From NCBI GenBank assembly GCA_947480015.1, contig CANKBS010000010.1, positions 1 to 64,000 of the forward strand: a stretch of DNA of 64,000 bases, in the 5' to 3' direction. Under the pieces are notes generated by a model, which worked only from the letters and a program-made list of their open reading frames with translations, ran no database searches and had not been told where the DNA came from. The translations under genes were made by a program, and so were the position numbers. Positions within the stretch are counted from its first letter, which is position 1, and each line of letters starts with the position of its first letter. The DNA comes from Sphingobacteriaceae bacterium. Lineage in GTDB: Bacteria > Bacteroidota > Bacteroidia > B-17B0 > Aurantibacillaceae. This document shows positions 58,643-62,879 of the stretch, in pieces.

Positions 58643-61090
58643 TTATTTCAATAATTCCATGGCCTCCTGAATGGAGATTACATCATTCTTAAAGGTAGCA
58701 ATAATGAAGGCGTCGGTAAATCCTTTGTCTTCTAGCTCCTTGCGGTGTTTCTCTGCTGCGTCAAATCCTTGAAAGGCCCCAGAGGTGTAACGCAAACTAC
58801 CTGAAGCAGTTGTTTGTTTCTCAATATTACGAAGGTCTTTTACTTTCTCATCCATCATCGTTTCGAAACTTTGTTTTTTCAATGGACCCAATTGAACCTT
58901 AAAGGCTAGTAATTTTTTGTCAATGGAATTAAAGATCTTGTCTTCGCTCAAATCCTCTTTATAGCTCTTATTCATAGTAGCCTTAGTCTGATTCATCGGA
59001 ATACGTTTTCCGCCTTTATAAGCAGTTACAAAGGCGTCGCTGTATCCCTGAACAACCAGATCGGCACGCACCGAAGCAGCTTCCTCAATTGATTTATAAC
59101 CTTTGGTTACATAACGGTAAATACTCTCGCCGGTTTTCAATTCTAACACACCGGCACTGGTATTAAATATACTGGTAGAAATTTTATTTTTAAAAGCCCC
59201 TAACTGAACACGGTATACAATGTCCTCTTTCGAGAAAACTTCTTCGGTAGCTGCACTTGTAACATTAACTTCAGAGCTATCACTTATTTTAACCGATAAT
59301 AATTCTTCCAGCTCACTGTTCAACAAACGCTGTAACTCTTCATCAGGTACCTGTATAATTTCTTTACCCTGAATTCTCGAAATACCAGCTCCCTTATTCC
59401 CTTCTGTTCTAAATTCATCTCTTCGTTTAATAGCCGAACCTAATTTATCATAACTACCGCTGGTGTAAACAACCGTTGTACCATCATCCAAAGTGGTTGA
59501 ATTGATATCACCAATACTTAATAAAAAAGCTAATTCATCAGAAGGAATCGAACCTGTGTAACGCACTAACTCAACTGTAAAATTGTCTTTTTTCTCCTTA
59601 GGTTTTTTAATTTTGGAGGCGTAAATATTACCAGTGTATTCGGTTACACGATCTACTGGAAGCGTATCGTTCAAATACTCATCATACCAAGCTTGCCAAT
59701 AAGCATCCGATTGTCCCACTCCTTTCTTATTTACTGGCATTCCTGTGGCCGTAGATAATTCATCATCACGGTAATCGGGAATTCCATCGCCATCGCTATC
59801 GAGTGCACAACCTTTTTCATTTACCTTAGCTCCTTTAGCTGTACCTAAACAATCGTCTAATAAATCAATAATTCCATCTTCATCTTCATCTTCGTCATCA
59901 TTATCCATAGCTAACCAGCTTGAATTACTGATTGTATCAACAAATGGTTTACTACTCGGTTTTTTGGTTATTAAATCGTATTGAAGTGCAAAGGAGGTAT
60001 AAGTGAAATTATCTTTTTGTTTATTTCCAACTCTATCACCACTACTTTTGTTTGAAATACCATCAATATAATCGGTGGTGGTTAAAAAATACTGGAAGTT
60101 CAGTTTCAAATCAACCCGGTTGGTAACTTTCATAATAAAGCCAATCCCAAGCGGGAAGGCCCATGAACGTTCCTGGTACTTACCAAAACCATCCTTATTT
60201 AATTCTCTGATATCACTTTCGTATTTATAATCTCTAACTAAATTTTTTGCGCTTTGAGCATCTGCAGATCCTTCCGGTTTATCTTTAATACTTCCGTCGC
60301 TCCAGTAATAATAAACACTACCGTTTTTATCTTTTAAATCGGTTTTACTTAAAAACTCAAAACCGGTTAACCCTAAGCTCACAAAAGGTCTTACCGTATA
60401 GCGTGCAGGAATTAAATTTCCAAAATCGTAAACCACATTTACTCCACCTGCTCTAATCTCTGATTGAAAGTTTTCGTGCCGGTTGAGAAGGTTTTCGTTT
60501 GCTCCTAATTTCCCAAATAAAACAGTGAAATCAAGTTGTAGGTAAGGGGTAATACGATGTGAAATAGCCAAATCCATTCCCGAACGTCCCACGGTTGGTG
60601 ACTGTAAATGGCGCTGATACAAATCACCCTTAAAGGCTAAACTACCATAACCAATCGCTATTTTTGGTCTTCGTCCAAGTTCCGGACCTTTTGCGGTATC
60701 TGGTGTTAAATCAAATTCCTCTTCTTCGCCACTACCATGATTACTGAGGGCGTAGCCATCAATGGTTTGAGTTGGTACGGTTAATGGATTTAAAACGTAA
60801 AACACCGAGTCACCAATCGTTGGCCCTTTGTAAAACTGAATGGGTTCAGGTTCGTTGAGATAATAATTTAAGATCTGTTCTGGCGTTAAACTGTCGGTTA
60901 ATTGTTTTGGAACTAAGGTGTCTGGAAAAATCGGTGGTCCTTGCTGATCGGGCAATTTAATTGGTATAATGCTATCTTGCTTAGGTTTTGTAATTACGGT
61001 ATCCTTAAGCGGAGGTTTAGGTTTAATACTGTCAAGTGCTGATTTTGATGTGAGACTATCTTTTACGAGTTTAACAAGCACGCTATCCAA
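58643..61090 (-). CDS. Outer-membrane barrel protein with TSP3 calcium repeats and three SPOR-like domains (frameshifted from its 5' part)
   Basis: The first ~75 residues are low-complexity (KPPLKDTVITKPKQDSI) and continue the fragment at 61135-61530. Residues ~140-400 look like a transmembrane beta-barrel (IAIGYGSLAFKGDLYQ, AWAFPLGIGFIMKV-type strands). Residues ~420-470 carry thrombospondin type-3 repeats that bind Ca (DEDEDEDGIIDLLDDC, DSDGDGIPDYRDDE). Three SPOR-like repeats follow: FTVELVRYTGSI, YRVQLGAFKNKI and FKVQLGPLKKQS, each with a YTSG/YVTKG turn. SPOR domains bind denuded peptidoglycan glycan. In OmpA-type proteins the barrel and TSP3 are followed by an OmpA domain; here SPOR units take its place. 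The open frame starts at TTG 61090, but coding clearly continues upstream in frame to about 61137. Confidence 0.8.
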   Translation of the reverse strand: MDSVLVKLVKDSLTSKSALDSIKPKPPLKDTVITKPKQDSIIPIKLPDQQGPPIFPDTLVPKQLTDSLTPEQILNYYLNEPEPIQFYKGPTIGDSVFYVLNPLTVPTQTIDGYALSNHGSGEEEEFDLTPDTAKGPELGRRPKIAIGYGSLAFKGDLYQRHLQSPTVGRSGMDLAISHRITPYLQLDFTVLFGKLGANENLLNRHENFQSEIRAGGVNVVYDFGNLIPARYTVRPFVSLGLTGFEFLSKTDLKDKNGSVYYYWSDGSIKDKPEGSADAQSAKNLVRDYKYESDIRELNKDGFGKYQERSWAFPLGIGFIMKVTNRVDLKLNFQYFLTTTDYIDGISNKSSGDRVGNKQKDNFTYTSFALQYDLITKKPSSKPFVDTISNSSWLAMDNDDEDEDEDGIIDLLDDCLGTAKGAKVNEKGCALDSDGDGIPDYRDDELSTATGMPVNKKGVGQSDAYWQAWYDEYLNDTLPVDRVTEYTGNIYASKIKKPKEKKDNFTVELVRYTGSIPSDELAFLLSIGDINSTTLDDGTTVVYTSGSYDKLGSAIKRRDEFRTEGNKGAGISRIQGKEIIQVPDEELQRLLNSELEELLSVKISDSSEVNVTSAATEEVFSKEDIVYRVQLGAFKNKISTSIFNTSAGVLELKTGESIYRYVTKGYKSIEEAASVRADLVVQGYSDAFVTAYKGGKRIPMNQTKATMNKSYKEDLSEDKIFNSIDKKLLAFKVQLGPLKKQSFETMMDEKVKDLRNIEKQTTASGSLRYTSGAFQGFDAAEKHRKELEDKGFTDAFIIATFKNDVISIQEAMELLK

Positions 61091-61134
61091 GCTGTGCTTT
61101 ACTTTAAGGGTATCAGGACTTAGTGTTGGTATTG

Positions 61135-61530
61135 TTATAGGATAGGTATAGGTATAGGAACAATGCTATCCTTAACTACATCTATAATTAAACTATCTTG
61201 TTTGGGTTCTGATCCTTTAGGAATTTCGGGTTTTGTGGAAGCGCTTAAAACACTATCCTGAATTTGTTTTGATCTTAAATTGTCATTAGCGAGTTTGTTG
61301 CGAATACTATCCTGAATGTGCACTTGTTTTAAACTATCTGCCGTTTGCTTGGCTTTCGTCACATTTTCAGGGAATAAGAGAGCGCTTAAACTCTCTTGTA
61401 TTTCAATGCTTTGTAAACTATCTTGAACTCTAGCATTTCTTAAACTATCGGCTTTGGATAAAATAGGATTTACTTGTGAGGACACAGTTAAACAGAGGAG
61501 AGAAAAGAAAAGAAGATAATAATTCTTCAT
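61135..61530 (-). pseudogene. N-terminal part (signal peptide and QDSL-rich repeat) of the barrel-TSP3-SPOR protein, cut off by a frameshift
   Basis: ATG at 61530 opens a signal peptide (MKNYYLLFFSLLCLTVSSQ), then a repetitive region with recurring QDSL/QDSI units (ARVQDSLQSIEIQESLS, VHIQDSIRNK, SKQIQDSVL). It ends VPIPIPIL at a stop inside a CCTATA repeat. The other frame beyond the repeat reads ITIPTLSPDTLKVKHSLDSVL, which joins the large frame downstream. Adding one base restores one protein of about 960 residues; see the repeat at 61136-61158. Confidence 0.75.
61136..61158. repeat. Imperfect (TATAGG)4 tandem repeat carrying a 1-nt deletion
   Basis: Three full TATAGG copies (61136-61141, 61147-61152, 61153-61158) and one copy lacking its first T (61142-61146). 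On the coding minus strand this is CCTATA repeated, encoding Pro-Ile pairs. The missing base causes the frameshift between the two parts of the SPOR-domain gene. Confidence 0.85.
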
Positions 61531-61565
61531 ATAATATTTAATCACCGTAAAAATAGGCTTTTTTT

Positions 61566-62879
61566 TTATTTAAACCATTTTTGATTCGTTATCATGAGTG
61601 CTTCCTGCACGGTGATGCGCTTGCCGTCGTTGTAGGCCACAACAAATGCACTTTTAACCCCATTGACGCTCGTCATGGTCTCGCGCTGCCCGCGGGCTTT
61701 TTTGTAATCCGTATGCGATCCAATCATGAATTTCGAAAAACCACCTTGCATTTCACTGCTGATCTTTTCTTTTATTTTAAACTTTCTAATGAGGGTTTGT
61801 GCTGTTACCTTACTATTTGTAAAGGCTCCAACCTGCACATGGAAATTCATATTGCCTTCTTTTTTCTCGGGTACAGAATTCACTTTTGCTTCAACAACCG
61901 GGTTTTGTGTTGGCTCAATTATCGGCTCCACAATCTTTTCAGGCTGTTTGGTTTCTGTTGATTCTATTTTGTTAGTTGCCACCTGAGTCGCTTGAAATGC
62001 TATAGACTCGACTGGGATTTTGATTTTTTTGCTTTGATTATCTTCAAGGTAAGAGTATTCTCCTCCTAAATTCATGGCACTTTGAGTCGTTCCCTGCAGG
62101 GAGTATGAAATCAGTAATTCTTCCTTATCAGGCACATTTACCCATACAAATTTAATTTTACCATCTGCAACCGAGAAAGAACCGCCTTCAGTCGCAATGG
62201 CTTTAGCGGTAACACCTACCGGAATATCATCGCTAAATCTCGCAAAACCTTTGGTTGCACCTTTTTTTATCTTTAGGTTTACAATAAATTCATTTTCTAC
62301 CGAACCTCCGGCTATGGTCCTTATTACCGAAATATCTCCGGCTGGTTCAGAATTAGCGGCTACCGGATTCACTAAGGGCTTATCCTTATTTGTTGAATCA
62401 TCTTTTTTAGCCAATGGTGCTGCTCCTACTGTTGATAAATCTTTCCCAGGAGCTACCACGGTGATATTAGTTGGATTCATTTCAACTACCTGCTTCACAT
62501 TATTTTCCACGTAAGCGTATTTTGCGTTTATGGTTTTTAATCCAAGATCTGTTTCATCGGCTATGATGGTTAATTTAATCGTGATTTCACTCTCGTTAGG
62601 TAAAGCGGCCCATACCCACTTGGCACTGGTTCCGCTATTGGTATAATTAGCTCCTTTGTCTTCACTTTCTTTAATGGTTATACCAGACGGCAAATCGAGT
62701 TGCAATTTGGCAAATCCATTCATGCTGCCTTTGTTTACAGTTAATTCAATAGCCACTTCCTCTCCGGCATGAATAGCTGTTGGAATTTTAACGTTAATAG
62801 TGACGCCATTACCATCACTAAATAAACCAAAAACAAAAAGGCTAAATGAATTAATTAATATAAACAGATATTTAATCAT
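61566..62879 (-). CDS. Exported protein with two Ig-like domains and a C-terminal SPOR domain
   Basis: 437 residues. The N-terminus is a signal peptide (MIKYLFILINSFSLFVFGLF). Two copies of a beta-sandwich domain with the common pattern ...GFAKLQLDLPSGITIKESE... and ...GFARFSDDIPVGVTAKAIA... lie at ~25-140 and ~180-295. A low-complexity linker rich in Pro, Glu and Val follows (PTQNPVVEAKVNSVPEKKE). The final ~75 residues form a SPOR domain (NFHVQVGAFTNSKVTAQTLI, FMIGSHTDYKKARGQRE). The SPOR sequence resembles those of the downstream gene and both end with a similar phrase (ITVQEALMI / ISIQEAMEL). Probably a periplasmic peptidoglycan-binding protein. It lies 35 nt upstream of the barrel-SPOR gene and is likely co-transcribed. 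Confidence 0.8.
   Translation of the reverse strand: MIKYLFILINSFSLFVFGLFSDGNGVTINVKIPTAIHAGEEVAIELTVNKGSMNGFAKLQLDLPSGITIKESEDKGANYTNSGTSAKWVWAALPNESEITIKLTIIADETDLGLKTINAKYAYVENNVKQVVEMNPTNITVVAPGKDLSTVGAAPLAKKDDSTNKDKPLVNPVAANSEPAGDISVIRTIAGGSVENEFIVNLKIKKGATKGFARFSDDIPVGVTAKAIATEGGSFSVADGKIKFVWVNVPDKEELLISYSLQGTTQSAMNLGGEYSYLEDNQSKKIKIPVESIAFQATQVATNKIESTETKQPEKIVEPIIEPTQNPVVEAKVNSVPEKKEGNMNFHVQVGAFTNSKVTAQTLIRKFKIKEKISSEMQGGFSKFMIGSHTDYKKARGQRETMTSVNGVKSAFVVAYNDGKRITVQEALMITNQKWFK

Follow-up and report, generated by a model that had tools for sequence, protein, structure and literature searches.

How the outer membrane stays attached to the cell wall during division is an open question in the phylum Bacteroidota. 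In other bacteria, SPOR modules hold stripped cell-wall strands at division sites, and OmpA-type proteins such as Escherichia coli OmpA and Pseudomonas aeruginosa OprF combine an 8-stranded barrel with a periplasmic C-terminal arm expected to bind the wall. A passage of PMC12204202 states that no tol-pal loci are identifiable in Bacteroidetes, proposes PorE as a tether and holds that further such systems are yet to be revealed. The DNA considered here, a 64,000-nucleotide stretch from a Sphingobacteriaceae bacterium (contig CANKBS010000010.1, positions 1 to 64,000; hereafter the window), encodes a protein that joins an OmpA-type barrel to SPOR units, called here the barrel-SPOR protein, next to a second gene with a SPOR-type end, called here the partner. 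The explanation favored, with a probability of about 0.5, is that the barrel-SPOR protein, together with the partner, tethers the outer membrane to denuded glycan where cells divide. Its structural side is well supported, as the order of the domains, their predicted folds, the pairing of the genes, conservation and the ligand residues were all computed; septal location and function would follow by analogy with SPOR domains elsewhere and from the conserved ligand residues. Barrel-SPOR proteins, being conserved and in most cases accompanied by a second SPOR protein, offer a tangible candidate for outer membrane-wall attachment in division.

The barrel-SPOR protein shares its barrel fold and the expected wall-binding arm with OmpA and OprF, but differs from them in having three SPOR-fold units and not PF00691, a TSP3-like spacer, an N-terminal disordered arm and an adjacent second SPOR gene. 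The wall-binding module of an OmpA-type protein appears here exchanged for one that reads, elsewhere, a different wall state. With the SPOR division proteins FtsN, DamX, DedD, RlpA and CwlC it has in common the fold and the ligand residues of units 2 and 3, whereas its anchoring by a barrel and its usual three units set it apart from them. A limited literature search, mostly of titles and the starts of abstracts, found no description of a barrel with SPOR units. The parts of the protein lie in the window as follows:

58643..61090, minus strand: main open reading frame (ORF), 815 amino acids (aa), with the end of the stalk, the barrel, the TSP3-like region and three SPOR units
59963..60670, minus strand: predicted 8-stranded OmpA-type outer-membrane beta barrel, residues 141-376 (AlphaFold2 model, Foldseek, VIA-align)
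59705..59899, minus strand: TSP3-like calcium motif region, residues 398-462, with two D-rich motifs and C414 and C428
59342..59593, minus strand: SPOR-like unit 1, residues 500-583, with Glu507 at the usual Gln position (models, hhalign, residue counts)
58985..59227, minus strand: SPOR unit 2, residues 622-702, with Gln629 and Arg659 kept (Pfam, VIA-align, residue counts)
58655..58918, minus strand: SPOR unit 3, residues 725-812, with Gln733 and Arg767 kept (hhalign to unit 2, VIA-align, residue counts)

The AlphaFold2 model of the main protein, built from 13 sequences, is low in confidence overall (mean pLDDT 61.4, pTM 0.33), yet parts of it are well formed, and it places eight barrel strands between residues 143 and 372. 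In VIA-align, the barrel matched E. coli OmpA in 9a2m, which is also a model (Z 18.6, rmsd 3.4 for 176 residues), as well as 9fzc (Z 17.2) and NspA 1p4t (Z 17.2). Eight strands in an OmpA fold were thus recovered by the model, Foldseek and VIA-align, which agrees with the initial annotation in taking this region for a barrel and not for a soluble domain. Downstream of it, the D-rich motifs and the two cysteines of the TSP3-like region are invariant across the 13 sequences, while Pfam TSP_3 (PF02412) matches weakly (10.3 bits, below its cut-off of 25). A Pfam scan of the 815-aa ORF up to E 10 found nothing but SPOR and TSP_3 and thus no OmpA wall domain (PF00691), and the locus is also absent from the 22 PF00691 matches of its genome. 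Searched against the sequences of solved structures, the family profile returned two weak matches, to the TSP3 region of an OmpA-family protein (E 0.077) and to an unrelated kinase-related protein (E 0.31). The proposal that SPOR units follow an OmpA-type barrel in place of the OmpA domain therefore stands, on the models, the structure matches, the lack of a PF00691 match and the conserved order.

Three SPOR folds had been expected in the arm, and three beta-alpha-beta-beta-alpha-beta units are found in the AlphaFold2 model, at about residues 503-574, 625-692 and 728-800; all three have the same topology in a second model of residues 484-815 (mean pLDDT 75.0). Pfam SPOR (PF05036) matches the 815-aa ORF at E 9.7e-8 (whole-protein score 32.7 bits against a cut-off of 21, strongest at 626-688), with three stretches counted at a loose threshold (E up to 10). 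A genome-wide PF05036 search at E 0.001 does not list the locus, so by that route the SPOR match is not strong. With the full model, VIA-align placed unit 2 on the SPOR domain of Bacillus subtilis CwlC (1x60; Z 8.1, rmsd 1.8, 71/79 residues), a row of modest Z that ranks 50th, with photosystem structures aligned to the barrel scoring equally. With the 484-815 model, unit 3 matched 1x60 (Z 8.0), RlpA 6i09 (Z 6.9) and DedD 6ztg (Z 6.3), and unit 2 matched RlpA 6i05 (Z 6.9, rmsd 1.8, 67/76 residues); DamX 2lfv (Z 6.5) was aligned over two units at rmsd 5.8 and is little informative, and the remaining rows were one unrelated exported protein (Z 8.4) and others at 4.9 or lower. For domains as short as 70-80 residues, such modest SPOR Z values (6.3-8.1) are expected. 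When the SPOR-region model was run through Foldseek, nothing matched at E 0.001 or below, and CwlC stood at rank 8 (probability 1.00). Unit 3 is clearly related to unit 2 (hhalign probability 97%, E 2e-11), and unit 1 shows weak similarity, in 79 colinear columns with unit 2 (21%, E 1e-3) and in 42 columns with unit 3 (66%, E 5.6e-5). Taken alone, unit 1 is not recognized by Pfam SPOR in any of the 13 sequences, and no VIA-align row of the 484-815 model covers it by itself, so that its fold rests on the model and weak profile similarity. The expectation of three folds was thus supported by solved SPOR domains for units 2 and 3, with unit 1, for which the topology is a predicted one, as the weakest case.

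According to a passage of PMC6895207, RlpA holds glycan via Q270, a basic patch and backbone contacts. The Gln matching Q270 is present in 87/89 copies of unit 2 and 80/85 of unit 3 but in 7/87 of unit 1, where Glu is commonest (52). When the set is thinned to 30 proteins (<50% identity), the same Gln is found in 29/31, 24/29 and 5/26 copies of units 2, 3 and 1, and the basic residue, in a column that we chose from the alignment, in 28/31, 20/29 and 0/26. Units 2 and 3 are accordingly read as predicted glycan binders and unit 1 as a diverged SPOR fold, so that the earlier description of glycan-strand-binding SPOR units would apply to units 2 and 3, which keep the known ligand residues, and not to unit 1, which usually lacks them. 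Such an arm might also serve a general outer-membrane-to-wall tether along the whole cell, like OmpA or Pal, with SPOR as just another wall-binding module and no role in division. We regard this as unlikely: its plan of barrel, spacer and wall domain is indeed that of OmpA-type proteins, but septal-type SPOR glycan-contact residues are kept in two of the units.

The barrel-TSP3-SPOR order is conserved in relatives and is therefore not due to chance. Relatives are encoded at 14 loci, all from metagenome-assembled genomes, with 50-65% identity in the best segment; 13 of the loci are labelled Bacteroidetes, Bacteroidia or Sphingobacteriaceae and one 'bacterium', and the fragments L016 and L017 were left out of the main alignment. 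Among the 396 class genomes searched, at least 75, drawn from at least 16 families, contain a single match stretch that reaches model position 775 or beyond of 778. In one of these, G069, two stops interrupt this stretch, although a 687-aa ORF there holds all domains. The architecture, which had been called unusual, is thus widespread and not unique, and varies the known plan of barrel, spacer and wall domain. Over the loci examined, 117 proteins combine the barrel with at least one SPOR unit, and 91 are distinct after removal of 26 duplicates or substrings; a TSP3-like region is present in 90 of the 91. Family profiles recognized three units in 76 of them, two in 7, one in 5, five in 2 and four in 1, counts that may miss diverged units because the profiles were built from the same family, and some of which are lowered by copies cut at contig ends. 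The extended versions with four or five recognized units (L057:2165-5755, 1196 aa; L156:4852-8256, 1134 aa; L157:4898-9823, 1641 aa) have no partner directly upstream.

The second gene of the pair lies just upstream of the barrel-SPOR protein:

61566..62879, minus strand: partner gene, 437 aa, with a conserved hydrophobic N-terminus, two putative Ig-like repeats and a C-terminal SPOR-type domain, with the ATG at 61530 lying 35 bp downstream

The SPOR-type end of the partner matches PF05036 weakly (7/12 members at E up to 1, best 0.0042), and the SPOR-unit profile of the barrel-SPOR family is matched by 111/113 partner-like ORFs (median 29.6 bits). The two repeats appear Ig-like from the alignment and from weak Pfam matches. 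A partner stands directly upstream and on the same strand for 73 of the 91 distinct main proteins, at a median gap of 36 bp. Both genes are present in 33 of the 37 genomes of the genus; the main gene stands alone in one (G022, cut by the contig start), the partner alone in two (G004 and G005), and neither is found in one (G024). Mean pairwise identity over 20 N-terminal residues is 0.71 for the partner (n=12) versus 0.34 for the main signal peptide (n=11); the window copy and L012 were omitted from the signal-peptide comparison, and L004 (cut), L012 and L017 from the partner alignment. The greater likeness of the partner N-terminus between relatives fits a retained membrane anchor. That a second SPOR protein is usually kept beside the barrel-SPOR gene also argues against a general tether. 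In favor of such a tether, 20 of 37 loci with room for it have a SPOR-less barrel protein, in several cases with an EF-hand-like tail, further upstream than the partner, which shows that the barrel-TSP3 part is reused with different tails.

Other arrangements around the partner were also seen. In G004 and G005, the main gene is replaced behind the partner by one for a short exported protein (139 or 137 aa; L159:7209-7628 and L160:8601-9014) with no match to the domain profiles used. Tandem arrays of five barrel proteins each (L058:1-9117 and L060:1548-10950) surround a distant partner homologue, most with TSP3-like regions and with EF-hand-like or other tails. The window's genome also encodes a partner paralogue of 413 aa (L069:628-1869, contig C6 of G000), which has a similar N-terminal part, SPOR and an apparently ordinary signal peptide.

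At the N-terminus of the barrel-SPOR protein, two further features of the window have to be considered:

61135..61545, minus strand: upstream ORF, 136 aa from GTG (ATG at 61530), with a signal peptide and a QDSL-rich disordered stalk, in a frame different from that of the main ORF
61125..61165, minus strand: frame break in a short CCTATA-type hexamer repeat (from the sequence and three-frame translation)

The initial annotation treated 58643-61530 as one protein with a QDSL-rich N-terminal stalk. Stalk and signal peptide are present but not in one frame, as the stalk is encoded by the upstream ORF, and the TTG of the 815-aa ORF is merely the first start codon past the break. Four close relatives (L019, L020, L021 and L030) have the same parts and the same type of N-terminal sequence in one continuous ORF of 924-952 aa, and judging from these the upstream ORF is likely the true N-terminus of the barrel-SPOR protein. 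The break may be either recent or a sequencing or assembly slip in the short repeat. If real, the window copy could be a freshly broken pseudogene that makes no exported protein, which may hold alongside any of the other explanations for the relatives. The placing of signal peptide and barrel in different frames speaks for this, but we consider it somewhat unlikely, since a slip in the repeat explains the break equally well and private deviations of the 815-aa part from otherwise invariant columns number only 6. As 11 other rows have 0-8 such deviations and the twelfth (L012) has 34, the window copy lies within the range of its relatives; any loss of function would be recent, and long decay was rejected. 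The stalk is probably on the periplasmic side and not surface exposed, because the number of barrel strands is even and the SPOR tail would be in the periplasm.

Elsewhere in the genome, 21 of the 22 PF00691 matches are above the cut-off. SPOR units in place of the OmpA domain are thus a property of the main protein and not a general one, and a wholesale replacement in the genome was rejected; the exchange concerns the barrel-SPOR protein and a PorE-like giant of 2071 aa (L065:3793-10008, contig C40 of G000). This giant has TPR, PD40 and carboxypeptidase-like regions followed by three SPOR units, together with a long coiled-coil-like sequence noted by eye, and matches T9SS_PorE at E 5.8e-22, far under the cut-off. 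According to a passage of PMC9143113, PorE itself is a lipoprotein that combines TPR, propeller and carboxypeptidase-like domains with an OmpA-like wall domain. It has no barrel, unlike the barrel-SPOR protein; what the two have in common is the part of outer membrane-wall tether, proposed for PorE in Bacteroidetes in passages of PMC12204202 and PMC9143113. Because the wall domain of PorE is OmpA-like and that of the giant is SPOR, the exchange seems to have occurred in this second protein too. Frames of about 1400-2430 aa with such SPOR matches occur in at least 29 of the 37 genomes of the genus and in several other families.

The giant raises the possibility that the barrel-SPOR protein is an accessory of type IX secretion or gliding, in which a PorG-like barrel and a PorE-like giant, both with SPOR units, anchor the machine to the wall. 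Such a role would agree with the three SPOR units that the giant carries in place of the PorE wall domain and with a weak match of the barrel to the PorG profile (NF052316; 38.9 bits, E 7.6e-10). That match, however, is far under the curated cut-off of 130 bits and a separate true PorG (176 bits) lies elsewhere in the genome, so membership in PorG was rejected; PorG and the barrel-TSP3-EF-hand sister proteins have a related barrel but no SPOR units, and an EF-hand-like or other tail. Moreover, no secretion-machine component was recognized among the neighbors, which were read by eye without systematic annotation (a possible type IX cargo lies downstream in L014), and G004 and G024 retain the giant although they lack the main gene. 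An accessory role is therefore held to be improbable.

For Tol-Pal, neither Pal (best 85.1 bits, cut-off 125.35) nor TolB (best 60.5, cut-off 343.15) reaches its curated cut-off in the window's genome, in line with the passage of PMC12204202 cited above, and each model passes its own cut-off in 2 of 14 control genomes. The genome has two Amidase_3 matches, and these proteins could make stripped glycan. Taking these observations further, stripped septal glycan might itself be the cue for outer-membrane constriction: the barrel-SPOR protein in the outer membrane, the Ig-SPOR partner in the inner membrane and the PorE-like giant would converge on shared glycan and pull the layers toward each other, as a SPOR-based functional counterpart of Tol-Pal in these Bacteroidota. 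This idea is speculative and, in our judgment, rather unlikely. A protein with HU-CCDC81 and a C-terminal SPOR is also encoded in this genome (L068:867-1937, contig C16 of G000).

For the septal tether favored here, the following mechanism can be proposed. The barrel would be embedded in the outer membrane, and the TSP3-like region would act as a calcium-stiffened spacer. Units 2 and 3 would bind glycan strands without stem peptides, and unit 1 would probably serve as a spacer within the arm or as a protein binder. The splitting of the septum by amidases is the main source of stripped glycan, so the barrel-SPOR protein should gather at constriction sites and new poles, where it would hold the outer membrane to the wall. 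The partner, exported, probably anchored in the inner membrane, Ig-like and SPOR-ended, would let the pair reach the same glycan from both sides. We infer calcium binding, glycan binding and the membrane side of the partner.

Several observations weigh against this tether. SPOR domains are not necessarily septal in this phylum, unit 1 is without ligand residues in most relatives, and the reading frame in the window is broken. Of the 18 distinct main proteins not counted as paired, 2 have no room upstream and 16 have no partner directly upstream by the rule used. In two of these 16 cases, the window copy and L154, a genuine pair escaped the rule, for the former because its truncated start lies 475 bp from the partner and for the latter because the two ORFs overlap by 92 bp; two more, L158 and L060, have a partner further upstream, behind another barrel gene; and for the remaining 12, no partner-like ORF was found within 4 kb upstream in the sequence examined. 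The main gene is missing from G004 and G005, and both genes from G024, so that the main gene is not required for division in these genomes. The signal of the partner may be cleaved and not kept as an anchor; by eye, some distant homologues have what resembles an ordinary cleavable signal. Lastly, the Pal and TolB cut-offs are strict and many weaker matches exist, and the abstract of PMC5891637 reports a Pal homologue in Cytophaga hutchinsonii.

In the wider neighborhood, a functional tie to the adjacent parA and parB genes was rejected, since that synteny was found only in L004 and L013 among the 14 loci, many of which are too short to tell. A parB-like ORF was also seen by eye in L168.

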